A DNA stretch of 42,636 nt from a virus. Below, piece by piece: positions 35,926-42,636 of the stretch. The translations under genes were made by a program, and so were the position numbers. The DNA is taken from the IMG/VR virus record IMGVR_UViG_3300024255_000053, positions 1-42,636 of that record, one strand, 5' to 3'. The notes under the pieces were generated by a model. It did not search any database and was not told the origin of the DNA. It was given only the letters and a program-made list of their open reading frames with translations. Position 1 is the stretch's first letter, and each line of letters begins with the position of its first letter.

Positions 35926-35960
35926 GTTACACTAGAGGAGTCAATTAGAGGTGAGGTACT
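35926..35960 (-). repeat. Intergenic cis-element type 1, copy A (divergent)
   Basis: Copy of the ~36-base element found before most small genes. Minus strand: TACCTCACCTCT, AATTGACTCC, TCTAGTGTAAC. It is the most divergent of nine (TCTAGT in place of TATAGT). It lies 17 bases ahead of the 80-aa gene. Confidence 0.7.
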
Positions 35961-35990
35961 ATAAGGGGGTGTTATATAGGCCCCCTTATA
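35960..35990. terminator. Strong hairpin, possible terminator or processing site
   Basis: Perfect 10-base inverted repeat, TATAAGGGGG (35960-35969) and CCCCCTTATA (35981-35990), with an 11-base loop. It lies between the 49-aa gene ending at 36020 and repeat copy A. There is no downstream T-run on either strand, so it could equally be an RNA-processing or stability hairpin. Confidence 0.5.
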
Positions 35991-36019
35991 TAATGCCTCT
36001 ATATATGGCCCTTATCTAA

Positions 36020-36169
36020 TCAGAACTCCAATTCCATAAGTGTTGGCTCATTGGCGACTTGCGATACTTGCTGTTCACTACTGCCCTCGGAGATAGACTC
36101 AAGGATTTCAAGAATCTGTGAACCTGTGTTACCCTTACGGAGCAGTGAGATCATTACAGATTTGGTCAT
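36020..36169 (-). CDS. Conserved small cyanophage protein (49 aa)
   Basis: 49 residues: MTKSVMISLLRKGNTGSQIL, EILESISEGSSEQQ, VSQVANEPTLMELEF. The opening (V-M-I-S-L-L-x-K-G-N-T-G-x-x-I-L-x-I-L) is one I recognise from short conserved cyanophage proteins of unknown function. The acidic-hydrophobic end MELEF looks conserved too. Type-2 repeat element 36175-36203 sits 6 bases ahead of the ATG. Likely early gene. Confidence 0.75.
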   Translation of the reverse strand: MTKSVMISLLRKGNTGSQILEILESISEGSSEQQVSQVANEPTLMELEF

Positions 36170-36174
36170 AATAA

Positions 36175-36203
36175 AGTGTTACTTAGTGGTGTGTGAGTAA
36201 GTG
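36175..36203 (-). repeat. Intergenic cis-element type 2, copy 1
   Basis: Minus strand CACTTACTCACACACCACT followed by AAGTAACACT, 6 bases ahead of the 49-aa gene. One of four similar elements (others near 36605, 39168 and 39546), each just before a start codon. Confidence 0.55.
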
Positions 36204-36421
36204 ATAGTTTAGAGTCATTACGGACTGTTAGTTAGCGCTAATACTAAATAATACTGTTATGTGTTCCGCGAGTTCACTTATTGGCGCTTGAGTTATTACA
36301 ACTGAACTCTCCTACGGGGTAAAGAGTCAGATACAACTAAGCACAACCAGTAAGTAACACATAGGACAAACACATCAGCAGACAATAACATACAAAAGGT
36401 TTTTAGAGAGATAGGCCTTAA
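36204..36421. other. Non-coding or weakly coding stretch
   Basis: Between the 49-aa gene and the hairpin at 36422 no convincing gene is seen. A 31-codon minus-strand ORF (36296-36391, MLLSADVFVLCVTYW... with a hydrophobic centre and an RRR end) could encode a tiny membrane peptide but has no clear ribosome site. A 10-base palindrome TTAGCGCTAA lies at 36232-36241. Confidence 0.35.
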
Positions 36422-36462
36422 CTCTATTTTTTAGTGCGTATATATAACACATAAAAATAGAG
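36422..36462. terminator. Bidirectional hairpin terminator candidate
   Basis: Inverted repeat CTCTATTTTT (36422-36431) and AAAAATAGAG (36453-36462), with GTG/CAC pairing further in. Each strand has an A-tract/T-tract on the stem, the usual look of a short bidirectional intrinsic terminator, although the GC content of the stem is low. It lies 12 bases after the stop of the 39-aa gene. Confidence 0.55.
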
Positions 36463-36474
36463 TGAGCATGTGAA

Positions 36475-36594
36475 TCAGAGCACTGACTTGCGTCTACGCT
36501 TAATCTGTGAGGGGAGCACAGTGACTGTTACTTTGTAGTGACCATGAGCCTTAAGAGTGTCAATGGTCTGTAGCAGTTGTTGTGTAGAGCTCAT
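36475..36594 (-). CDS. Small basic protein (39 aa)
   Basis: 39 residues from ATG 36594: MSSTQQLLQTIDTLKAHGHY, KVTVTVLPSQIKRRRKSVL. A helix then a beta strand, with a basic end (IKRRRK). It is preceded by type-2 element 36605-36631 and followed by the hairpin at 36422-36462, which gives it the shape of a complete single-gene unit. No family recognised. Confidence 0.55.
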   Translation of the reverse strand: MSSTQQLLQTIDTLKAHGHYKVTVTVLPSQIKRRRKSVL

Positions 36595-36604
36595 AGCTGG
36601 AGTA

Positions 36605-36631
36605 GGTGTTACTTAGTGAGTGAATGAGTAG
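36605..36631 (-). repeat. Intergenic cis-element type 2, copy 2
   Basis: Minus strand CTACTCATTCACTCACT followed by AAGTAACACC, 10 bases ahead of the 39-aa gene and just after the stop of the 66-aa gene. Confidence 0.55.
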
Positions 36632-36638
36632 TGTTTAC

Positions 36639-36839
36639 TTAACCGTGGAATCCTAACTCCTCCCAATCCCATTGAACTCCTTCTGGCGAACACTCAGGAA
36701 GGTTCATAGATTTACAATAATTAACTGCTGCTTCTTGGGTTGAGAAGATTTTAGCAGCGCTGTTGCCTCTCAATATAATTGTTTCACGAATGCTGTCGGA
36801 GTTAGTGAAAAAAGGAAAGGTGATAAAGGCTGAAGTCAT
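36639..36839 (-). CDS. Hypothetical protein (66 aa)
   Basis: 66 residues: MTSAFITFPFFTNSDSIRET, IILRGNSAAKIFSTQEAAVNY, CKSMNLPECSPEGVQWDWEELGFHG. The shape (beta strands, then a helix with AAVNYCKSMNL, then an acidic-aromatic end) resembles small phage proteins with an A-x-x-Y-C/A-K-S segment, but I cannot name the family. Repeat copy B lies 15 bases ahead of the ATG. Confidence 0.68.
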   Translation of the reverse strand: MTSAFITFPFFTNSDSIRETIILRGNSAAKIFSTQEAAVNYCKSMNLPECSPEGVQWDWEELGFHG

Positions 36840-36853
36840 GTGGCGATTGTGTG

Positions 36854-36890
36854 GTTACACTATAGGGGTCAATTCGAGGTGAGTAACTTT
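36854..36890 (-). repeat. Intergenic cis-element type 1, copy B
   Basis: Minus strand AAAGTTACTCACCTCG, AATTGACCCC, TATAGTGTAAC, 15 bases ahead of the 66-aa gene. A -10-like TATAGT is present; no good -35 box stands 16-18 bases ahead of it. Confidence 0.8.
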
Positions 36891-36935
36891 AATAGAGTGA
36901 ACTTTCAGGGTTTCTGAGTATTTTGGGGGAGGGGG

Positions 36936-36964
36936 TTGACATTAGGGAGAAGGCCTGATAGAAT
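36936..36964 (+). promoter_or_regulatory. Plus-strand sigma70-like promoter (TTGACA-17-TAGAAT)
   Basis: TTGACA at 36936-36941, 17 bases, TAGAAT at 36959-36964. It is the only strong plus-strand promoter noticed in this block and has no plus-strand gene after it. Its transcript would run into the DnaA-box cluster at 37006-37070, so it may make a replication primer or a small antisense RNA. Confidence 0.6.
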
Positions 36965-37005
36965 GCACTCTTAGATGACAATAAGATCTGACATTAATTA
37001 ATACC

Positions 37006-37070
37006 TTTTCCACAGATTACAACACTTATCAACACCTTTAACCCTACTATTCCACAGCCATTGTGGAAAA
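37006..37070. other. DnaA-box cluster, candidate replication origin
   Basis: Four DnaA-box-like 9-mers in 65 bases: TTTTCCACA (37006-37014, plus strand), TTATCAACA (37026-37034, plus strand), TATTCCACA (37048-37056, plus strand), and TTTTCCACA on the minus strand (37062-37070). TTTTCCACA is the box form known from cyanobacterial chromosome origins. The last two boxes form an inverted pair (TTCCACA/TGTGGAA). Both flanks are AT-rich and the whole interval 36891-37131 is free of genes. Confidence 0.55.
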
Positions 37071-37131
37071 CAATAAAACACTCATATACATTTAAAAAGG
37101 CCTTTATTAAACGTTTTTAATGAAAATAGTC

Positions 37132-37139
37132 TATTTATA
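37132..37139 (-). promoter_or_regulatory. T4-type late promoter-like box (TATAAATA)
   Basis: Perfect TATAAATA on the minus strand, overlapping the stop of the HNH gene and pointing through the DnaA-box interval towards the 66-aa gene. It may give late transcription across the candidate origin; it could also be chance in AT-rich DNA. Confidence 0.4.
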
Positions 37140-37470
37140 AGTGTTTTTTGGGGTTATTCTTGGTTGTTACTCCCCATCTCGTTCTTACTCGATGAGGTGA
37201 CTTTGGTCTACGGTTATTGGCCTGTGTAATCTTATCAGCCCACCTACAGTTCTCCTTACTATATCCCTGATTATTGTCTATCCTATCTAATGTAAACCCC
37301 TCTGGTCTTTGTCCCATATCTTCAACGAACTGCCAGAAGTCTTTACTCCATTCTTCACACATAGTGATACCTCTTTCCCCGTAATTAGAATAAGAAGCGT
37401 TTGTCTTACAGTTACATCTACTCTTTGCATTTGCCCAGGTTTGATACAGTGGGTGATTATTTGGCCTCAT
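37135..37470 (-). CDS. HNH-type homing endonuclease
   Basis: 111 residues from ATG 37470 (a GTG three codons earlier is possible). The pattern [72 protein letters not shown] is that of a common phage HNH subfamily: paired Cys, Y-G-x-R-G-I-x-x-C, then L-D-R-I-D-N with N-C-R-W-A as the nuclease site. It would nick or cut DNA at a specific target. It sits at the end of a coupled run of small genes and beside the DnaA-box region. It overlaps the stop of the preceding gene by 14 bases. A selfish insertion is likely. Confidence 0.85.
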
Positions 37471-37621
37471 ACTTAACACCTACCTGTTGACATAAGTCTA
37501 CCATTGATAGTGGTGATTTGTCAACCAATTGTTCATCTAACTCCTCCTTAGTTGGTATAGGTGAGTGGGGTTTATAAGCCGCTATGATACCACTTAGTTG
37601 ATAGGTTAGTTTATCATCCAT
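37457..37621 (-). CDS. Small hypothetical protein (54 aa)
   Basis: 54 residues from ATG 37621: [54 protein letters not shown]. The longer in-frame start (37711) would lie inside the coupled membrane-peptide gene, so the downstream ATG, which overlaps the stop of that gene by 8 bases, is preferred. Helical, acidic, no membrane segment. Function unknown; it is part of a four-gene overlapping run. Confidence 0.68.
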
Positions 37622-37739
37622 CCGTGTATTGCGTAGGTGATAAATCTCGTGATTCATTGAGTTGTAGATAGAAACAATAGAACACAAATAACCATGGGAT
37701 GGTAGGAGCAACTAAGACTCCTAACATATACTTAATCAT
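37614..37739 (-). CDS. Mini membrane protein (41 aa)
   Basis: 41 residues: [41 protein letters not shown]. One hydrophobic helix at about residues 5-25, short polar tail. The ATG overlaps the stop of the upstream gene (ATGA), and its own stop overlaps the next ATG, so it is embedded in a chain of translational couplings, which is good evidence that it is real despite its size. Its topology and target are unknown; tiny phage inner-membrane proteins often alter host envelope processes. Confidence 0.65.
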   Translation of the reverse strand: MIKYMLGVLVAPTIPWLFVFYCFYLQLNESRDLSPTQYTDG

Positions 37740-38059
37740 GAGAACACATATCCATTTCTGAACTCTTTAGTGACATTGTTATCTCTTACATACCAGGTGT
37801 AATTCTTTTGAAAGACACCATCAGTGAATGCATTACAGAACTCATTGATAAGTGCATTGAGTCTTGACTTAGTAGTGTTTGATTGATAACCACCATCAAA
37901 GATAGTCATAAAATCATCACCAACTTCTGCAATCTTATTACCATGAAGACGAACAATTGAAATGTTATCTTCCTCATTGAATGATACTGTTGTGTTTGTA
38001 TTTGACCAGTTCTCAGAATTGTGAACTGCGGAACACATTTGAGTTTCGATCTTTCTCAT
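37736..38059 (-). CDS. Conserved phage protein of unknown function (107 aa)
   Basis: 107 residues: MRKIETQMCSAVHNSENW, TTVSFNEEDNISIVRLHGN, KIAEVGDDFMTIFDGGYQS, NTTKSRLNALINEFCNAFTDG, VFQKNYTWYVRDNN. The M-R-K-I-E-x-x-M start, L-H-G-N-x-I-A, D-G-G-Y-x-S-x-T-T-K-S-R-L-N-A-L and V-F-Q-K-N-x-x-W are ones I recognise in many phages and some cyanobacteria, always without known function. Repeat copy C lies 31 bases ahead of the ATG. It heads the coupled run of four genes ending in an HNH nuclease. Confidence 0.85.
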   Translation of the reverse strand: MRKIETQMCSAVHNSENWSNTNTTVSFNEEDNISIVRLHGNKIAEVGDDFMTIFDGGYQSNTTKSRLNALINEFCNAFTDGVFQKNYTWYVRDNNVTKEFRNGYVFS

Positions 38060-38090
38060 GATGTTGAATTGGTTGGGATGCCGTATGGCG

Positions 38091-38130
38091 GTTACACTAT
38101 AGGAGTCAATTGGAGGTGAGTAACTTTAAT
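38091..38130 (-). repeat. Intergenic cis-element type 1, copy C
   Basis: Minus strand ATTAAAGTTACTCACCTCC, AATTGACTCC, TATAGTGTAAC. It begins 4 bases after the stop of the 82-aa gene and lies 31 bases before the 107-aa gene. It is one of the consensus-like copies. Confidence 0.85.
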
Positions 38131-38133
38131 ACC

Positions 38134-38382
38134 TTACGATAATGCTGCAATACCATCATTTACAACATACTCCATAATATCACTTGATGTGCAATCATCA
38201 CCAAGATATACTTTGGTGAATCGTATTGCGTCTTCAGTTGTATTGAACTCAACTCGTACATTATTAAACTGATTGTTGTTAAATGCAATACTGAGTGGAG
38301 TGACTTGTGTCATCTCTAATACTTCCGCAACAGCGGTACAAGTGTTATCTTCAATGAAATCGTAGTTGATGATTTGTTTCAT
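38134..38382 (-). CDS. Small conserved protein, paralogue of 39756-39980 (82 aa)
   Basis: 82 residues: MKQIINYDFIEDNTCTAVAEVLEM, TQVTPLSIAFNNNQFNN, VRVEFNTTEDAIRFTKVYLG, DDCTSSDIMEYVVNDGIAALS. It aligns along its length with the 74-aa protein at 39756-39980: Y-D-F, T-A-V-A-E-V, V-T-P-L-S, V-E-F, D-A-I-x-F-T, Y-L-G, S-D-I and E-Y-V. The fold looks like a small alpha/beta unit. Function unknown. Confidence 0.75.
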   Translation of the reverse strand: MKQIINYDFIEDNTCTAVAEVLEMTQVTPLSIAFNNNQFNNVRVEFNTTEDAIRFTKVYLGDDCTSSDIMEYVVNDGIAALS

Positions 38383-38419
38383 GGTCTTGATTTGTTTGAT
38401 GTTAGTTTATTAGTCATAA

Positions 38420-38695
38420 TCAAAGCTCCTCCATCATTTCATTCATCTCATCATAGTTGATTACGGGGTCATTCCACTTAACACCATCAGCTGTAGCAAA
38501 TCTTTCACTGTTATTCATACAACGAACAAACTTCTCATATGGGGTATCATCTTCATTACAGAATTTGACACAAGCTTTTGCAGTATTATACAAAAACTCA
38601 CTATTACCAATCCATAGACTTGCGTTCCAAGTTTCATAATTAGTCCAACCATTGTAAGTTGTGTCTTCCATTGTTGTCTGATAGGTTGATGTCAT
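38420..38695 (-). CDS. Conserved phage protein (DUF7249-like, 91 aa)
   Basis: 91 residues. The centre YNGWTNYETWNASLWIGNSEFLYNTA is a strongly recognisable segment of a widespread small phage protein of unknown function (N-G-W-x-N-Y-E-T-W-N-x-x-L-W-I-x-N); I recall the family as DUF7249 but cannot check. The first Met is used; a second one at residue 9 is also possible. The C-terminus is acidic (DEMNEMMEEL). The leader contains a stem-loop (38725-38788) just after repeat copy D. Confidence 0.85.
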   Translation of the reverse strand: MTSTYQTTMEDTTYNGWTNYETWNASLWIGNSEFLYNTAKACVKFCNEDDTPYEKFVRCMNNSERFATADGVKWNDPVINYDEMNEMMEEL

Positions 38696-38724
38696 GATTG
38701 TGGTGATTAAAAAGATTTAGTGAT

Positions 38725-38788
38725 GGGTCAGTGAAACAAACTCTCTGAAACAATACTAAGAGAGAAGAGAGAGTGAGAAGACTGACCC
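38725..38788 (-). promoter_or_regulatory. 5'-leader stem-loop
   Basis: GGGTCAGT (38725-38732) and ACTGACCC (38781-38788) form a perfect 8-bp stem around a loop that itself can pair CTCTCT with AGAGAG. It starts right after the TATAGT of repeat copy D, where the transcript for the 91-aa gene would begin, so it may be a 5'-end stabilising hairpin. Confidence 0.5.
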
Positions 38789-38828
38789 CTTACACTATAG
38801 GGGTCAATTCGAGGTGAGTAACTTTAAT
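38789..38828 (-). repeat. Intergenic cis-element type 1, copy D
   Basis: Minus strand ATTAAAGTTACTCACCTCG, AATTGACCCC, TATAGTGTAAG. A minus-strand ORF of 25 codons (from 38866) would run through this copy but is not convincing. Confidence 0.82.
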
Positions 38829-38871
38829 TCGTGCTAGAAAGACATTTGAAAGAAGTAATGCACCCATTAGT

Positions 38872-39153
38872 CTAGACCATTTCCTGTTGATATGACATGA
38901 ATTGCTCCTCTGTAACCTCATCCACACTCTCTTGAATAACCTGATAGATGTAATCATTGTTTCCTACATCATCAAAGATACGTCTAATCAATGCAGGATT
39001 TTCTACCTGATGATCATAATCAACCTCACCATTTTCATCCTTTACATGTATATCTTCCTTCGTATAAATCCATGCGGCACATTCTGCATCTTCTCCCTGT
39101 TGTGCAATCATACTATTAACACGGTCTTGAAGTTGCTTGAGAGTGTAGTTCAT
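38872..39153 (-). CDS. Hypothetical conserved cyanophage-type protein (93 aa)
   Basis: 93 residues: MNYTLKQLQDRVNSMIAQQG, EDAECAAWIYTKEDIHVKD, VDYDHQVENPALIRRIFDDVG, NNDYIYQVIQESVDEVTEEQF. The arrangement of an N-terminal helix, A-A-W-I-Y-T-K-E-D strand, and then an acidic helix ending in Q-E-S-V-D-E-V looks like a conserved small protein of marine phages. No membrane segment. The type-2 element at 39168-39190 lies 15 bases upstream. Function unknown. Confidence 0.75.
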   Translation of the reverse strand: MNYTLKQLQDRVNSMIAQQGEDAECAAWIYTKEDIHVKDENGEVDYDHQVENPALIRRIFDDVGNNDYIYQVIQESVDEVTEEQFMSYQQEMV

Positions 39154-39167
39154 GATTTGAATGAGAG

Positions 39168-39190
39168 AGTGTTAGTTAGTGTGAGTAAGT
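39168..39190 (-). repeat. Intergenic cis-element type 2, copy 3
   Basis: Minus strand ACTTACTCACACTAACTAACACT, overlapping the end of the 56-aa gene and placed 15 bases ahead of the 93-aa gene. Confidence 0.55.
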
Positions 39191-39346
39191 TCCCATATGA
39201 TCACCTAATTCAATAACAGTATGTCCGAGGTAATCTTCAACCCAGACAATGGAATTAAACTCTTCGAACATTGAATAGGCAACATCGATAGCATGTGCTT
39301 GTGCCACTTTGACCAACTGTCCACTCTCGGCCGACCTGAGTATCAT
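39176..39346 (-). CDS. Small hypothetical protein (56 aa)
   Basis: 56 residues from ATG 39346, which overlaps the stop of the 64-aa gene (ATGA): MILRSAESGQLVKVAQAHAI, DVAYSMFEEFNSIVWVEDYL, GHTVIELGDHMGTYSH. Mixed helix/strand, acidic. The coupling to the previous gene and full use of the gap before the next element support it as a real gene. No family named. Confidence 0.6.
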   Translation of the reverse strand: MILRSAESGQLVKVAQAHAIDVAYSMFEEFNSIVWVEDYLGHTVIELGDHMGTYSH

Positions 39347-39537
39347 TTAGTGGGGAAATTACGGCAGACAGCATCACATAGCATCTCCTGCAACATATCA
39401 CTAGACTCCTCACATATGTGTCCTGAATCACTACAATCAGAAACAATAGAGATAATATCTTCCATCAATTGTTCCCGTGTTGATAACATCTCTGCATAAG
39501 CATTCTTGAGTTGATCGATTTGATTGATAGTCATCAT
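39343..39537 (-). CDS. Small helical protein (64 aa)
   Basis: 64 residues: MMTINQIDQLKNAYAEMLST, REQLMEDIISIVSDCSDSGH, ICEESSDMLQEMLCDAVCRN. Helical throughout; either of the first two Met codons may start. The opening T-I-N-Q-I-D-Q-L-K-x-x-Y-x-E-M matches the opening of the frame-broken gene at 40545-40749 (T-I-N-Q-L-D-Q-I-K-x-x-Y-x-E-M), so the two are paralogues at least at this end. Type-2 element 39546-39570 is 9 bases upstream. Function unknown. Confidence 0.68.
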   Translation of the reverse strand: MMTINQIDQLKNAYAEMLSTREQLMEDIISIVSDCSDSGHICEESSDMLQEMLCDAVCRNFPTK

Positions 39538-39545
39538 TTGAAAAA

Positions 39546-39570
39546 AGTGTTAGTTAGTGAGTTGAGTGAG
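39546..39570 (-). repeat. Intergenic cis-element type 2, copy 4
   Basis: Minus strand CTCACTCAACTCACTAACT followed by AACACT, 9 bases before the 64-aa gene. Confidence 0.5.
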
Positions 39571-39583
39571 GGTTAGTTAAGAG

Positions 39584-39751
39584 TTAGAATACGTTGGTCC
39601 ATGAATGATGCTTTGCAGCACTAATCCTACCATCTTTGAGTAATCCATCACAGACACGACAGAATACTTCAAACTTTTCCAATCGTGTCATGTTAGGATC
39701 AACGTCCCTTGCAGTTTCACCGACGACTTTGAGAACTTGACCTTTGAGCAT
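39584..39751 (-). CDS. Conserved small cyanophage protein (55 aa)
   Basis: 55 residues from ATG 39751: MLKGQVLKVVGETARDVDP, NMTRLEKFEVFCRVCDGLL, KDGRISAAKHHSWTNVF. The combination L-K-G-Q-V-x-K-V-V-G, T-R-L-E-K-F-E-V-F/Y-C and W-T-N-V-F/Y is one I recognise from short conserved cyanophage proteins. The longer in-frame start (39853) lies inside the upstream gene and is rejected. It begins 4 bases after the stop of the 74-aa gene. Confidence 0.78.
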   Translation of the reverse strand: MLKGQVLKVVGETARDVDPNMTRLEKFEVFCRVCDGLLKDGRISAAKHHSWTNVF

Positions 39752-39755
39752 GATG

Positions 39756-39980
39756 TTAATTAGTGACGTACTCACAAATATCAGAAGGATCTGTTGATCC
39801 AAGATATATCTCAGTGAAAAGGATTGCGTCCTTTTGATCGACAAACTCAACACTTATATTATCATGCATTGTAGAATTGAATGTAACAGATAGTGGTGTT
39901 ACATTTGCAATCTCACATACTTCTGCTACTGCAGTAAGTGAATGATCAGAGAAAAAATCGTATTTGATGGTGATAGACAT
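39756..39980 (-). CDS. Small conserved protein, paralogue of 38134-38382 (74 aa)
   Basis: 74 residues: MSITIKYDFFSDHSLTAVAE, VCEIANVTPLSVTFNSTMHD, NISVEFVDQKDAILFTEIYLG, STDPSDICEYVTN. It aligns with the 82-aa protein encoded 1.5 kb further on, clearly by duplication. The two genes are not adjacent, so either several genes were inserted between them or the duplication was dispersed. Repeat copy E lies 14 bases ahead of its ATG. Function unknown. Confidence 0.75.
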   Translation of the reverse strand: MSITIKYDFFSDHSLTAVAEVCEIANVTPLSVTFNSTMHDNISVEFVDQKDAILFTEIYLGSTDPSDICEYVTN

Positions 39981-39994
39981 AGTTTAGAAACGTG

Positions 39995-40029
39995 GTTACA
40001 CTATAGGAGTCATTTGGAGGTGAGTAACT
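39995..40029 (-). repeat. Intergenic cis-element type 1, copy E
   Basis: Minus strand AGTTACTCACCTCC, AAATGACTCC, TATAGTGTAAC. It shares two bases with the stop codon of the 70-aa gene (40028) and lies 14 bases ahead of the 74-aa gene. Confidence 0.8.
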
Positions 40030-40240
40030 AGAATAACCAAGATAAGAACCCTCTCTTTTCATCTTTATCACTATTGTGTTCTCTTACCACTGTTGGCCAA
40101 GTTGCAGTGGAGTTTGGTATCATACCTTCGACAAGTCTCATTGCTTCATCATTATACATTGCCTCCACATTGATGTGACGAGTTCCAGCTTCTGTTGGTA
40201 CAGTGTAAGGAACTCGAAAAGTATAAGTGATTTGTGCCAT
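40028..40240 (-). CDS. Small hypothetical protein (70 aa)
   Basis: 70 residues: MAQITYTFRVPYTVPTEAGT, RHINVEAMYNDEAMRLVEG, MIPNSTATWPTVVREHNSD, KDEKRGFLSWLF. A beta strand start, a helix with DEAMRLVEGM, then a hydrophobic-aromatic tail (GFLSWLF). I think of it as a small phage protein with ferredoxin-like or stress-response-like proportions, but have no family name. It shares an operon with the 73-aa gene upstream (35 bases apart). Confidence 0.68.
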   Translation of the reverse strand: MAQITYTFRVPYTVPTEAGTRHINVEAMYNDEAMRLVEGMIPNSTATWPTVVREHNSDKDEKRGFLSWLF

Positions 40241-40275
40241 GATAAAAAGAAAAAAGTTGATTGATAAAGTAAAAA

Positions 40276-40497
40276 TTAACCGCCGTAAACTTCTTCGGCC
40301 ATTGGTGTGTCAGTGTAGATACTTGGTACCTTAACTGATTCCCCAAACATTTGCTCAAAAATATCAGGTTTAAATTGTTTTTTGTATTCGTGATTAAGTC
40401 GTGCAATCTCTTCTTTACATGCTTCGACTTCCATTTGTGCCTTCCACATTCTGTGGCGAAGATCATATTGTAAGTTGTTTCTTTCGGTGATTGTCAT
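40276..40497 (-). CDS. Small helical protein (73 aa)
   Basis: 73 residues: MTITERNNLQYDLRHRMWKA, QMEVEACKEEIARLNHEYKK, QFKPDIFEQMFGESVKVPSI. Residues 5-42 form one long charged helix with a heptad-like pattern, probably a coiled coil. The C-terminus is acidic with Pro. Repeat copy F is 15 bases ahead of the ATG and the leader CACACAATCAACTC is nearly the same as that of the 115-aa gene at copy I. Function unknown. Confidence 0.68.
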   Translation of the reverse strand: MTITERNNLQYDLRHRMWKAQMEVEACKEEIARLNHEYKKQFKPDIFEQMFGESVKVPSIYTDTPMAEEVYGG

Positions 40498-40511
40498 GAG
40501 TTGATTGTGTG

Positions 40512-40545
40512 GTTACACTATAGTGGTCAATTGGAGGTGAGTAAT
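40512..40545 (-). repeat. Intergenic cis-element type 1, copy F
   Basis: Minus strand AATTACTCACCTCC, AATTGACCAC, TATAGTGTAAC, 15 bases ahead of the 73-aa gene; the upstream end touches the stop of the frame-broken gene. Confidence 0.82.
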
Positions 40546-40749
40546 TATAAAGCAATCAAATCGTCCCATACTTCTTCACCGTAACAATCACTAATCTCTT
40601 CCTGTAAATCTTCCATCTCATATTTTTTTTAAGTTTTCCACAATACTATCCTCAGAGAATTCGATCAATAGTTTCATATCCATTCCCTCTACAATCATCT
40701 CTGTGTATGATCTTTTGATTTGGTCTAGTTGATTGATAGTCGTGTTCAT
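40545..40749 (-). pseudogene. Small gene split by an 8-A run (frame-broken or slippage-expressed)
   Basis: From ATG 40749 the first frame reads MNTTINQLDQIKRSYTEMIV, EGMDMKLLIEFSEDSIVENL, KKI and stops at TGA 40618. Immediately after the run of eight A (40623-40630 as T on the plus strand) another frame continues YEMEDLQEEISDCYGEEVWD then DLIAL to TAA at 40545. Removing one A joins them into a 67-residue protein with a single helical design, whose opening matches the 64-aa gene at 39343-39537. The join is at a homopolymer, so a sequencing error, true loss, phase variation or transcriptional slippage are all possible. Confidence 0.7.
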
Positions 40750-40763
40750 TTGATTGATTTGCA

Positions 40764-40792
40764 AGTGGAATAATTTAGAGGTAAGTGACTTT
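40764..40792 (-). repeat. Degenerate type-1-like element
   Basis: Minus strand TAAAGTCACTTACCTCTAAA, then TTATTCCAC: recognisable as a decayed type-1 element (compare TAAAGTTACTCACCTCCAAT) without the TATAGT part. It lies between the 65-aa gene and the frame-broken gene, the place where a full copy would be expected. Confidence 0.45.
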
Positions 40793-40793
40793 A

Positions 40794-40991
40794 TCACCCA
40801 ACAGAAACCAGTTCTTCAAACCTGTCAAGAGTTGCATATCTTACGACTCCATTCTCATCTGTGAGTTGAACCATTGGCCACATAGGTGAATCGGCGAGAA
40901 ACTTACCACCGGTAATGGTATGAACTATTCCAGTTTTTTCATCTTCTACTTTACAACCGATTGTTTCTTGAACCCAGTTAAGAAAACTCAT
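40794..40991 (-). CDS. Small conserved-type protein (65 aa)
   Basis: 65 residues: MSFLNWVQETIGCKVEDEKT, GIVHTITGGKFLADSPMWP, MVQLTDENGVVRYATLDRFE, ELVSVG. It reads as a helix followed by a small beta barrel (V-x-T-I-T-G-G...M-V-Q-L-x-D-E-N-G-V...Y-A-T-L-D-x-F-E). I recall such short proteins in cyanophages, function unknown. Repeat copy G lies 18 bases ahead of the ATG. Confidence 0.72.
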   Translation of the reverse strand: MSFLNWVQETIGCKVEDEKTGIVHTITGGKFLADSPMWPMVQLTDENGVVRYATLDRFEELVSVG

Positions 40992-41009
40992 TTGAAACGA
41001 AAAACAGAA

Positions 41010-41048
41010 CTACACTATAGGAGTCAATTGGAGGTGAGTAACTTTAAT
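41010..41048 (-). repeat. Intergenic cis-element type 1, copy G
   Basis: Minus strand ATTAAAGTTACTCACCTCC, AATTGACTCC, TATAGTGTAG, 18 bases ahead of the 65-aa gene. Confidence 0.82.
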
Positions 41049-41148
41049 ATCCGACAAAGGGCCTTACATTGTAATACTGTAACCACCACAGAAATTGTAT
41101 TACAAATGCCCATAGATTAGCGGGTTGAGGCTGATACTTGAACCGCAG
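41044..41148 (-). CDS. Possible tiny aromatic/membrane protein with non-standard start
   Basis: A 34-codon open stretch with no ATG, GTG or TTG: from CTG at 41148 it reads LRFKYQPQPANLWAFVIQFL then WWLQYYNVRPFVGY and stops next to repeat copy G, as most real genes of this block do. The composition (Trp/Tyr/Phe-rich with one hydrophobic helix) looks like a protein rather than chance. It overlaps the 35-aa gene by 32 bases in another frame. CTG initiation or a frame error would be required. Speculative. Confidence 0.3.
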   Translation of the reverse strand: MRFKYQPQPANLWAFVIQFLWWLQYYNVRPFVGY

Positions 41149-41224
41149 TCATTACCTTCTGTGTTGTTGAATCAATCCACACAATCTTGTGGGTCTTGAT
41201 GTCTGATGCAATGTTGTAGATCAT
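41117..41224 (-). CDS. Small hypothetical protein (35 aa)
   Basis: 35 residues from ATG 41224: MIYNIASDIKTHKIVWIDS, TTQKVMTAVQVSASTR. Two or three beta strands, no membrane part. It starts 3 bases after the stop of the 28-aa membrane peptide. Supported by position and a sensible composition only. Confidence 0.45.
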   Translation of the reverse strand: MIYNIASDIKTHKIVWIDSTTQKVMTAVQVSASTR

Positions 41225-41227
41225 TTG

Positions 41228-41314
41228 TTAAAGAATGATGAGGATTAAGACAATGGAGTAGAAGTTGGCGTAGACTTTCGCCCACTCTTTTTTAGTTTTT
41301 GTCACTTTTACCAT
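41228..41314 (-). CDS. Mini membrane protein (28 aa)
   Basis: 28 residues: MVKVTKTKKEWAKVYANFYS then IVLILIIL. A basic N-terminal stretch followed by a hydrophobic C-terminal helix, the shape of a tail-anchored membrane peptide. It overlaps the end of the 61-aa gene by 23 bases and is closely followed by the 35-aa gene. Small size makes this tentative, but two similar mini membrane genes sit in the same block. Confidence 0.4.
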   Translation of the reverse strand: MVKVTKTKKEWAKVYANFYSIVLILIIL

Positions 41315-41477
41315 TAGTGAAAGAACCTAGGATTGGCTCTGGGCCACAAAGATTACGTTTAACTTCTGCATATCCAAACTCTTCAGATAGATCACAACAA
41401 ATACGCCATGCTTGATCTAAATCATTTGTGGTTACATCTTCATATCGAGCGGATGGAACAATGATCCTAAACTCCAT
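41292..41477 (-). CDS. Small hypothetical protein (61 aa)
   Basis: 61 residues: MEFRIIVPSARYEDVTTND, LDQAWRICCDLSEEFGYAEV, KRNLCGPEPILGSFTNGKSD. A strand-helix-strand unit with two adjacent Cys in the helix. Repeat copy H is 17 bases ahead of the ATG with the leader CACGCAATCAATTC. Function not recognised. Confidence 0.65.
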   Translation of the reverse strand: MEFRIIVPSARYEDVTTNDLDQAWRICCDLSEEFGYAEVKRNLCGPEPILGSFTNGKSDKN

Positions 41478-41493
41478 TTGAATTGATTGCGTG

Positions 41494-41530
41494 GTTACAC
41501 TATAGTGGTCAATTGGAGGTGAGTAACTTT
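41494..41530 (-). repeat. Intergenic cis-element type 1, copy H
   Basis: Minus strand AAAGTTACTCACCTCC, AATTGACCAC, TATAGTGTAAC, 17 bases ahead of the 61-aa gene and touching the stop of the 67-aa gene. Confidence 0.83.
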
Positions 41531-41732
41531 ATTTCAGTTCAATTCGTTCGTATAGACACATACCAAGGTCAAAATATAGATCCTCATCCATCTCACCCAT
41601 TTTGGCGTCTAATGCTTCTTGAACACAATGACGCATAACCTCGTTATATTTCTCGTTTGCGTAAATGTGTTCGATGATGTCATCTTTGAGTGCATCAGCA
41701 ATACGTGATACAGTGACTGCAGAAAGTGCCAT
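41529..41732 (-). CDS. Conserved small cyanophage protein (67 aa)
   Basis: 67 residues from ATG 41732: MALSAVTVSRIADALKDDII, EHIYANEKYNEVMRHCVQEA, LDAKMGEMDEDLYFDLGMCL, YERIELK. All-helical; the G-x-x-D-E-D-L-x-F-x-L-x-M-C-x-x-x-R-I-x-L-K ending is one I recognise from short conserved cyanophage proteins of unknown function. The frame is open further upstream, but that extension lies across the upstream genes and is not used. It begins 5 bases after the stop of the 24-aa membrane peptide. Confidence 0.78.
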   Translation of the reverse strand: MALSAVTVSRIADALKDDIIEHIYANEKYNEVMRHCVQEALDAKMGEMDEDLYFDLGMCLYERIELK

Positions 41733-41737
41733 AGTAG

Positions 41738-41812
41738 TTAAGAAAAGTGTTTGATAATGGTTACAAAGAATGCCCCGACGGCAATATAATAAAAGAAGCG
41801 GAACATAAACAT
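41738..41812 (-). CDS. Mini membrane protein (24 aa)
   Basis: 24 residues: MFMFRFFYYIAVGAFFVTIIKHFS, given here in full as MFMFRFFYYIAV and GAFFVTIIKHFS. Almost entirely one membrane helix. Its ATG shares a base with the stop of the 115-aa gene (TGATG), and it ends 5 bases before the next ATG, so the spacing argues for a real coupled gene. I have a recollection of near-identical peptides in other cyanophages but cannot verify it. Confidence 0.55.
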   Translation of the reverse strand: MFMFRFFYYIAVGAFFVTIIKHFS

Positions 41813-42159
41813 CAACGAAGATAAAGGAATGAACCGTATTGGTCAATAGCCTCGGGGTGATCAAGCAAGAAATCGATATAAAATCTAATGCCTTTGGCTG
41901 GTGCCTTGTGACTGGCTGGTTTGTAACATGCACCAGTTTCTTTATCAACAAACATAAAACAACTGCGACCCTCTCTGACAACACCATCATAGCATTTTGA
42001 TTGCCACACTTTGATATACTTACGACCAACTTCCATTGTTAGATACTCATGGAAGTTACGTCCATTCTCAACAGCCAAGACTTTCCAGTCATTGTTAAGA
42101 ACTTCAATCAAGCATTCTGTTTGATACTCAGCTTTGTATTGTGGTGCGGTGAAAGTCAT
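41812..42159 (-). CDS. Conserved-type hypothetical protein (115 aa)
   Basis: 115 residues: MTFTAPQYKAEYQTECLIEV, LNNDWKVLAVENGRNFHEYL, TMEVGRKYIKVWQSKCYDG, REGRSCFMFVDKETGACYKP, ASHKAPAKGIRFYIDFLLDH. The middle (K-Y-I-K-V-W, S-C-F-M-F-V-D-K-E-T-G-x-C-Y-K-P-A-S-x-K-A-P-A-K-G-I-R) is the hallmark of a small phage protein seen in many tailed phages, with no assigned function as far as I know. Repeat copy I is 14 bases ahead of the ATG. It is translationally coupled to the 24-aa membrane peptide. Confidence 0.8.
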   Translation of the reverse strand: MTFTAPQYKAEYQTECLIEVLNNDWKVLAVENGRNFHEYLTMEVGRKYIKVWQSKCYDGVVREGRSCFMFVDKETGACYKPASHKAPAKGIRFYIDFLLDHPEAIDQYGSFLYLR

Positions 42160-42173
42160 AAGTTGATTGTGTG

Positions 42174-42212
42174 GTTACACTACAGTGGTCAATTGGAGGT
42201 GAGTAACTTTAA
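42174..42212 (-). repeat. Intergenic cis-element type 1, copy I
   Basis: Minus strand ATTAAAGTTACTCACCTCC, AATTGACCAC, TGTAGTGTAAC (TGTAGT in place of TATAGT). It lies 3 bases after the stop of the 98-aa gene and 14 bases before the 115-aa gene. Confidence 0.82.
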
Positions 42213-42546: not shown

Positions 42547-42636
42547 TCATCGCCTCCTGGTTCTTGTGGTGATTGTATCATAACCTCCACCGTCACCGTC
42601 ACCGTCACCGAAACCGTCACCGTAACCATCACCGGA
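42547..42636 (-). CDS. C-terminus of a Gly-Asp repeat protein (runs off the window)
   Basis: 29 codons visible before TGA 42547, open to the window edge: repeated G-D units (GDGYGDGFGDGDGDGGG) then YDTITTRTRRR. The DNA is a 6-base tandem repeat of the type GGTGAC (about 42590-42636). Gly/Asp/Tyr repeat small proteins of this kind occur in cyanophages; their role is unknown and Ca binding is only a possibility. Another frame through the same repeat (Val-Thr) joins the next gene but is not credible. Confidence 0.55.
   Translation of the reverse strand, partial: SGDGYGDGFGDGDGDGGGYDTITTRTRRR

Follow-up and report, generated by a model that had tools for sequence, protein, structure and literature searches.

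Repeated promoter-like elements with a virus-specific box, and a candidate protein that reads them, in T4-like cyanophages

Introduction

In bacteriophage T4, middle promoters carry a MotA box that is centred near −30 and lies 12 ± 1 bp from the −10 element (PMC2988021). Certain T4 proteins carry N-terminal sequences that direct them into the head and are then cut off (PMC9026906, PMC3012670). In a survey of 16 cyanomyoviruses, σ70 promoters were predicted with BPROM, and T4 late, Pho and NtcA sites were sought (PMC3037559). Here, we describe a repeated element in the IMG/VR virus record IMGVR_UViG_3300024255_000053, the whole of which (42,636 nucleotides, 42.6 kb) was analysed and is referred to as the window. 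Judged by its relatives, the window is a fragment of a T4-like cyanophage (Kyanoviridae). Nine copies of the element stand among minus-strand small genes at 35.9–42.6 kb, and from their sequence they look like promoters of this phage. Each combines a −10 hexamer with a 10-nucleotide box that hardly varies within a virus, differs between viruses and co-varies with the C-terminal helix of a basic phage protein of about 200 residues, referred to as the factor. We consider it probable that element and protein are a co-evolving promoter–activator pair that works like MotA, the protein perhaps being packaged in the head. No description of the element or the factor was found in a literature search of partial coverage, and an earlier description may exist.

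Architecture of the elements in the window

The 34-mer GTTACTCACCTCNAATTGACNNCTATAGTGTAAC, with up to three mismatches allowed, was matched nine times in the window, always on the minus strand, and never in 100 dinucleotide shuffles of the window. Element 1 (42174–42207) has its box at 42198–42207, the hexamer TGTAGT at 42179–42184 and a predicted +1 at 42172; it precedes a 115-residue open reading frame (ORF) with its ATG at 42159. The next seven elements carry the hexamer TATAGT, which shares five of six letters with TATAAT. They are element 2 (41494–41527; box 41518–41527; hexamer 41499–41504), ahead of a 61-residue ORF (ATG 41477); element 3 (41009–41042; box 41033–41042; hexamer 41014–41019), ahead of a 65-residue ORF (ATG 40991); element 4 (40512–40545; box 40536–40545; hexamer 40517–40522), ahead of a 73-residue ORF (ATG 40497); element 5 (39995–40028; box 40019–40028; hexamer 40000–40005), ahead of a 74-residue ORF (ATG 39980); element 6 (38789–38822; box 38813–38822; hexamer 38794–38799), ahead of a 91-residue ORF (ATG 38695); element 7 (38091–38124; box 38115–38124; hexamer 38096–38101), ahead of a 107-residue ORF (ATG 38059); and element 8 (36854–36887; box 36878–36887; hexamer 36859–36864), ahead of a 66-residue ORF (ATG 36839). 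Element 9 (35926–35959; box GTACCTCACC; hexamer TCTAGT) precedes an 80-residue ORF (ATG 35909). Number, orientation and coordinates agree with the original prediction, a reading of the letters alone, except that element 3, the seventh copy in ascending order, starts at 41009 and not at 41010. A decayed tenth copy at 40756–40789, also on the minus strand, retains the box block GTCACTTACCTC with two mismatches and has lost any recognisable −10.

Eight of the nine copies end 14–31 nucleotides ahead of an ATG, as had been said of most of them; with TATAGT placed at −12 to −7, their predicted leaders are 13–30 nucleotides long. Element 6 ends 93 nucleotides ahead of its ORF, which gives a predicted leader of 92 nucleotides (38696–38787, minus strand). 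The stem-loop that had been proposed for this leader is predicted here and in relatives, and among five leaders two stem pairs are altered on both sides (GC to UA and UA to AU). The absence of a Shine–Dalgarno sequence turned out to be general, an SD-like tetramer within 18 nucleotides of the ATG being found in only 10 of 716 leaders from the window and related loci. The statement that most copies begin near a stop codon holds in part: with upstream ORFs of at least 45 residues and alternative starts allowed, the stop lies within 10 nucleotides for four copies and at 49–72 nucleotides for three, and there is none within 120 nucleotides for the other two.

The geometry of the element was analysed in 287 fetched loci, which are partly redundant. 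The hexamer TATAGT stands where a −10 element should (−12 to −7), as originally proposed, and the 10-nucleotide box lies 13 nucleotides upstream, at −35 to −26. The promoter strand had 1178 boxes that were exact and modal, and TATAGT (up to one mismatch) followed at exactly 13 nucleotides in 1010 of them, at other distances in 47 and not at all in 121; on the opposite strand there were no exact modal boxes. No σ70-type −35 (a hexamer near TTGACA at 16–18 bp) was found, in line with the original observation, because the virus-specific box occupies its place. In 55 distinct loci, identity within a locus exceeds identity between loci most strongly at −35 to −26, and another such stretch lies in the spacer; position −27 is C with a frequency of 1.00. 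Within-locus identity has fallen to 0.37 at −43 and, past +1, is near the between-locus level.

The original prediction had offered an RNA-processing site as an alternative and had pointed to CACCTC in the element as part of the 16S rRNA 3′ tail. An RNA element (a processing site, a hairpin or an anti-Shine–Dalgarno sponge) would suit this likeness and the GTTAC...GTAAC ends of the window's class. However, these end pairs occur at or near the level expected of independent columns, so that the proposed search for compensatory changes between copies spoke against pairing; no Rfam match was obtained in the window at gathering thresholds, and there is little conservation beyond the predicted +1. 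Orthologous promoters elsewhere carry boxes of other classes, without CACCTC and without GTTAC, which argues against a conserved function of the 16S-like sequence. We regard an RNA function as barely credible.

A hairpin-like AAGGGGG...CCCCCTT sequence at 35966–35990, directly upstream of element 9, resembles a terminator by eye. Imperfect tandem ACCGTC repeats occupy the end of the window (42577–42634).

Distribution in related viruses

The search of other cyanophage genomes that had been suggested showed the element to recur in relatives. Of the named phages, S-B05, RB11-B and RN05-S match the window's small-gene region best. When S-B05 (208.9 kb) was scanned in pieces, 14 copies were found, 12 in its small-gene cluster and two near 156–157 kb, one of which precedes a helicase gene; annotated 102-bp repeat_region features at 40399–40500 and 158813–158914 adjoin the two element clusters of this phage. 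The first 70 kb of SynMITS9220M01 contain 12 clear copies with scores of 1.3 to 38.3, against −9.4 at most in shuffles. In IMG/VR, the exact core of the window's element occurs in 30 stretches and the pattern RTTACTCACCTC-N10-CTATAGT in at least 119. The same pattern, which represents only the window's box class, had no exact match in genome_contigs (one genome per species, 84,980 prokaryote species), and mimicry of a host promoter was rejected on this limited ground.

Copies face one direction within each of 129 loci (469 copies, single-copy loci included), and a broader collection of 183 loci with at least two promoters contains 182 that are one-stranded. Directionality, position ahead of small genes and recurrence with a fixed 13-nucleotide spacing bear out the promoter part of the proposed 'modular early promoter'; the word 'early' reflects gene context. 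S-SM2 and the single-cell virus AG-345-O18 share the right half AAAGTGTCCCTATAGT and differ from the window in the left block, which is AAGGGGGG(T/A)CG at unchanged spacing, and a search with the right half alone showed that every locus carries its own left block. Some scans used patterns that favour the boxes and spacers they contain, and the box-class frequencies are biased and not estimates because known boxes or spacers served as the starting point of several searches.

Syn9 (NC_008296) gave no window-type element in positions 1–100 kb, neither a TTACTCACCTC nor a AAGGGGGGTCG box (one mismatch allowed) when the whole record was searched in pieces, and no credible factor homologue (best tblastn E 0.006). 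By eye, Syn9 uses other promoters: near 46.4, 47.3 and 51.1 kb, another recurrent promoter-like sequence, TTCTATAAGAGTCAAAGG, stands shortly before the ATG of small genes.

Box identity within and between viruses

The 287 loci yielded 46 modal 10-mers, which were grouped by rule into 14 classes plus 'other' for screening. For comparison of identities, 888 promoters in 284 loci were anchored on the spacer and −10 alone, the box being left free. Boxes of orthologous genes in different loci (8413 pairs, 35–85% amino-acid identity) have an identity of 0.531, and boxes of non-homologous genes within one locus (1865 pairs) 0.945. The −10 block, which belongs to the anchor, is equally conserved in both comparisons (0.947 between orthologues and 0.953 within a locus). 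The upstream flank is equally poorly conserved (0.303 and 0.323), as is the leader (0.389 and 0.358). A total of 552 promoters were closer to their own locus than to their orthologues, 18 were less close and 19 were tied; the pairs are not independent because loci are contig pieces, some from one contig. Since boxes are alike within a locus and unlike between orthologues, all boxes of one virus tend to change together. Boxes also have half-sites in common, combined in various ways, as in GTTA+GGATCG, ACTT+GGATCG and GTTA+CTCACC.

Uniform boxes could also arise without a reader, if ordinary σ70-type early promoters were spread as PeSL-like cassettes and kept uniform by recombination. Promoter–terminator cassettes have been reported to mediate gene shuffling in T4-like phages (PMC4503421), and the spacer, another part of the anchor, is partly homogenized too (0.907 within a locus versus 0.679 between orthologues, a smaller gap than that of the box). 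Against this, the homogenized tract is fairly sharp-edged and excludes the flanks, the 13-nucleotide spacing is fixed, and boxes and spacers vary independently: 28 different boxes accompany spacer AAAGTGTC, and 11 different spacers accompany box GTTACTCACC. Together with the finding, given below, that the C-terminal helix of the factor predicts the box and its N-terminus does so much less well, this makes the cassette explanation quite improbable.

A candidate reader protein

The small-gene cluster comprises 44 protein families, of which 32 had enough members for co-variation with the box to be scored. The factor, a family of basic proteins with 110 members in all, tops these with z 10.8 and a best column association of 0.80. 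It is encoded at 49522–50103 in S-SM2 (193 residues), 40815–41420 in SynMITS9220M01 (201 residues) and 154660–155322 in S-B05 (220 residues). Its N-terminal part is conserved across box classes and its C-terminus is class-specific: R-x-E-R-D occurs with nearly all CTCACC boxes, ERM with GTAACC, GTTACC and GTATCG, ERN with GTTA+(G/C)GATCG, ERL with ACTTGGAT(C/G), ERK(A/S)LYK with GGGACG, ERKA(L/V)TKK with most GGGTCG members and EKK(K/R)xV with GGGCCC. The boxes listed with the factors of S-SM2, P-TIM68 and SynMITS9220M01 are AGGGGGGTCG, GTTAGTTACC and RTTACTCACC.

Among 86 distinct entries, the C-terminal helix correlates with the right half of the box at r = 0.689 (permutation maximum 0.162) and with the left half at 0.544. 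The tail gives 0.546 for the right half and 0.503 for the left. The N-terminus, used as a control, gives 0.134 and 0.123, near its permutation maximum of 0.139. The box code may be in two parts: by eye, helix and tail seem to follow one half each, a division that the correlations do not separate.

The factor is present in eight of nine named element-bearing viruses. In the window, tblastn with E up to 0.01 gave no match to it. Contig IMGVR_UViG_3300025769_000818 carries the window's element variant (loci L007 and L025) together with a factor with ERD (L118), and an ERD-type factor is therefore expected elsewhere in the genome of the window virus; the candidate reader gene would lie outside the window.

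Other candidates were rejected. None of 17 records, 13 of them from IMG/VR and perhaps fragmentary, gave MotA or AsiA (PF09114 and PF09010) above cut-off; below it, each model had a single weak match. A phage σ factor was sought through region 4 (PF04545) and not found in six records; PF04542 finds gp55 in four annotated records. A 79-residue family, suspected first from synteny, did not separate by box (z 4.1). A small 'transcriptional regulator' beside phoH is more similar between S-B05 and S-SM2 (55%), which have different boxes, than between S-B05 and SynMITS9220M01 (33%), which have the same box. No family stood out in a whole-genome similarity screen of 50 families, and the factor was absent from the 25 families listed. 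Presence/absence and similarity lists over three genomes gave no single candidate. An enrichment screen was uninformative because enrichment follows clades.

Prediction of boxes from the protein

Boxes were predicted from nearest neighbours in a leave-one-out scheme that set aside relatives with more than 60% N-terminal identity. The helix gave the correct right half in 68 of 76 cases and the N-terminus in 32 of 75; the full 10-nucleotide box was correct in 47 and 14, respectively. With the commonest class left out, the helix was correct in 28 of 35 and the N-terminus in five of 35.

When named phages were searched by protein (E up to 0.01), ten records belonging to eight viruses were found to encode the factor. 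Two of these, P-TIM68 and the single-cell virus AG-345-E15, were reached by protein and not by box search; the other six also have boxes, those of RN05-S and RB11-B being known by BLAST places only. For P-TIM68, an ERM helix and a GTTA-type tail led to the expectation of GTTAGTWACC. The 35 kb fetched of its 197 kb (NC_028955) contain 12 exact copies, every one of them in a small-gene cluster at 47.1–56.1 kb and on the plus strand, and one further GTTAGGTACC in an equal setting; shuffles, with one mismatch to GTTAGTAACC allowed, gave a mean of 2.1 and at most six. The thirteen copies in this Prochlorococcus phage have their own −10, often near ATTAAT. The factor of AG-345-E15 resembles those that go with AACTGAAGCC and AACTGTAGCC, and in its 16.8 kb AACTGAAGCG, which differs from AACTGAAGCC by one mismatch, occurs three times, always on the same strand (shuffles: mean 0.7, at most three). 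The two predictions were judged by eye, and a box of AG-345-E15 could be seen alongside its protein beforehand; these cases are therefore supportive, not blind.

For a larger test, factor-bearing contigs were fetched by protein alone, using the best 80 of 347 relatives. This gave 75 new loci, 33 of which share less than 2% of 60-mers with the earlier data. After exclusion of 13 with no detected promoter, one with no readable factor and three repeats, 16 held-out cases remained. Prediction from the nearest training helix was exact for the right half in nine of these and within one base in 13; the full box was correct in seven. With boxes shuffled 20,000 times, exact matches averaged 1.8 (maximum 7) and matches within one base averaged 5.05 (maximum 12). 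In two held-out cases (L397 and L421) the script took the wrong stretch for the helix.

Features of the factor gene and protein

A late-type motif ([AC]TAAATA or TATAAAT) lies within 60 nucleotides upstream of 69 of 83 distinct factor genes, namely those with a start resembling a head-targeting sequence and enough upstream sequence, and it mostly ends 21–30 nucleotides ahead of the gene start. The same motif precedes 12 of the 16 structural genes taken from S-SM2 and SynMITS9220M01, none of 555 early-element genes and 146 of 2390 other mechanically called ORFs. The N-terminus of the factor, MKTFxEF, resembles MKTYQEFIAEA of T4 ipII and ipIII and MKTFKEF of ipI (T4 sequences from NC_000866). 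By pattern only, 81 of 110 members begin in this head-targeting-like manner. Similar N-termini are rare: including the factor, they occur in three proteins of S-SM2, two of SynMITS9220M01, four of S-B05 and none of Syn9. A second protein of S-SM2, SynMITS9220M01 and S-B05, 408–432 residues long, has the head-targeting-like N-terminus MK.F...F.SEA and is perhaps, on this pattern, another packaged protein.

The strongest rival explanation is a late-made repressor. The box would then be an operator, used to shut the early promoters late or to block a superinfecting virus with the same box. A late product, as the motifs ahead of 69 of 83 factor genes suggest, could equally be a repressor; moreover, the box overlaps the −35 position, and private operators are typical of immunity-like systems. 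Three points favour an activator instead. The promoters have neither a σ70 −35 nor a TGn and so look in need of help, the geometry is the one used by the activator MotA, with the box at −35 to −26 and 13 bp ahead of the −10 (PMC2988021), and a protein with a head-targeting-like N-terminus would make little sense as an injected repressor of the virus's own first genes. On balance, we find repression unlikely.

Proposed mechanism

According to the promoter–activator reading, each copy would drive one small gene or a short gene group. Host RNA polymerase, through its σ factor, would read TATAGT at −12 to −7, and the 10-nucleotide box at −35 to −26 would stand in for the usual −35 contact. The box would be read by the factor, whose C-terminal helix co-varies with it and which would hold polymerase at these promoters as MotA does at T4 middle promoters. 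The factor would be made late, and it would probably be packaged in the head and enter the host together with the DNA, so that the promoters could fire at once. We infer DNA binding by the factor, activation rather than repression, packaging, injection and early timing. As to the fullest form of the proposal, in which a virion-packaged, sequence-specific activator is injected and fires private early promoters while box and activator diversify as lock and key, our judgement is evenly balanced.

Several observations weigh against this proposal. Association with box class is seen in other families as well (next z 7.5, 6.1 and 6.0; best columns at most 0.64), as expected from shared descent. The factor scores above them, and its own N-terminus and the held-out cases serve as controls in place of a formal phylogenetic model. 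Some factors do not fit their boxes: L097 (ERN) and L122 (ERH) occur with TTACTCACC, and L161 occurs with GGGTCG. In the held-out set, the right half was inexact in seven of 16 and the full 10-nucleotide box right in only seven; the prediction failed clearly for L361, and for L375 the left half was wrong. Synechococcus phage S-B43, the exception among the nine named viruses, has elements but no factor homologue detected at E up to 1, and in the S-B05 stretch around the factor gene only the helicase end matches S-B43. Searches with the factor gave no useful relative in Pfam (best E 0.013, 65 members) or PHROG (best 0.0079, four members), and no useful match in PDB sequence and fold searches. 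AlphaFold models show long helices and not a standard helix–turn–helix. The long C-terminal helix from the box-specific residues has a local confidence (pLDDT) of about 82–92, but for two factors the mean pLDDT is 72 and 70 and the predicted template-modelling score (pTM) 0.39 and 0.26, and the overall arrangement is not reliable because the pTM is low. Transcription start sites and early timing are also what we infer, the latter from gene context. The original interpretation as a whole was partly supported.

The promoter–activator reading offers a route by which a group of T4-like cyanophages with no recognizable MotA or AsiA could take over host transcription, and it names a likely reader gene. 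It also provides DNA boxes and protein tips that are paired by nature, from which a protein–DNA recognition code may be read from sequence alone. If it is true, many cyanophages would each own a private promoter language, and the reason for this diversification (avoidance of cross-talk, exclusion or defence) becomes testable.

Comparison with known systems

The intergenic repeats of halovirus HF2 are likewise short repeats between genes that act as promoters, but HF2 is an archaeal virus, and no virus-specific code with a co-varying protein is described in the excerpt of the source (PMC8707807). The early promoters (Pe) of T4-like phages share a σ70-type −10, small variable genes and many copies per genome with the cyanophage element; predicted Pe resemble GTTTAC at −36 to −31, whereas the element has many unrelated virus-specific boxes there (PMC1524935). 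PeSL cassettes are similarly repeated early promoters between variable genes and possible sites of exchange (PMC4503421), to which the element adds a virus-specific box and a co-varying protein. Like the T4 internal head proteins, the factor is basic, has a late-promoter motif and begins like ipI, ipII and ipIII; the T4 proteins are described as a defence against restriction enzymes, and none as an early-promoter reader, in the excerpts cited (PMC3012670, PMC9026906).

The closest likeness is to T4 middle promoters, in which a phage box also replaces the −35 and for which a box 13 bp upstream of −10 corresponds to −35 to −26 (PMC2988021). The T4 box sequence TGCTTtA is, however, absent from the 46 modal boxes of the 287 loci, and MotA tolerates deviations (PMC2988021), whereas the cyanophage box is strict and virus-specific. 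The candidate reader, unlike MotA, has no similarity to known families and looks late-made. The element works like T4 σ appropriation but is not a member of that system, from which it is set apart by its box sequence and by the MotA and AsiA searches.

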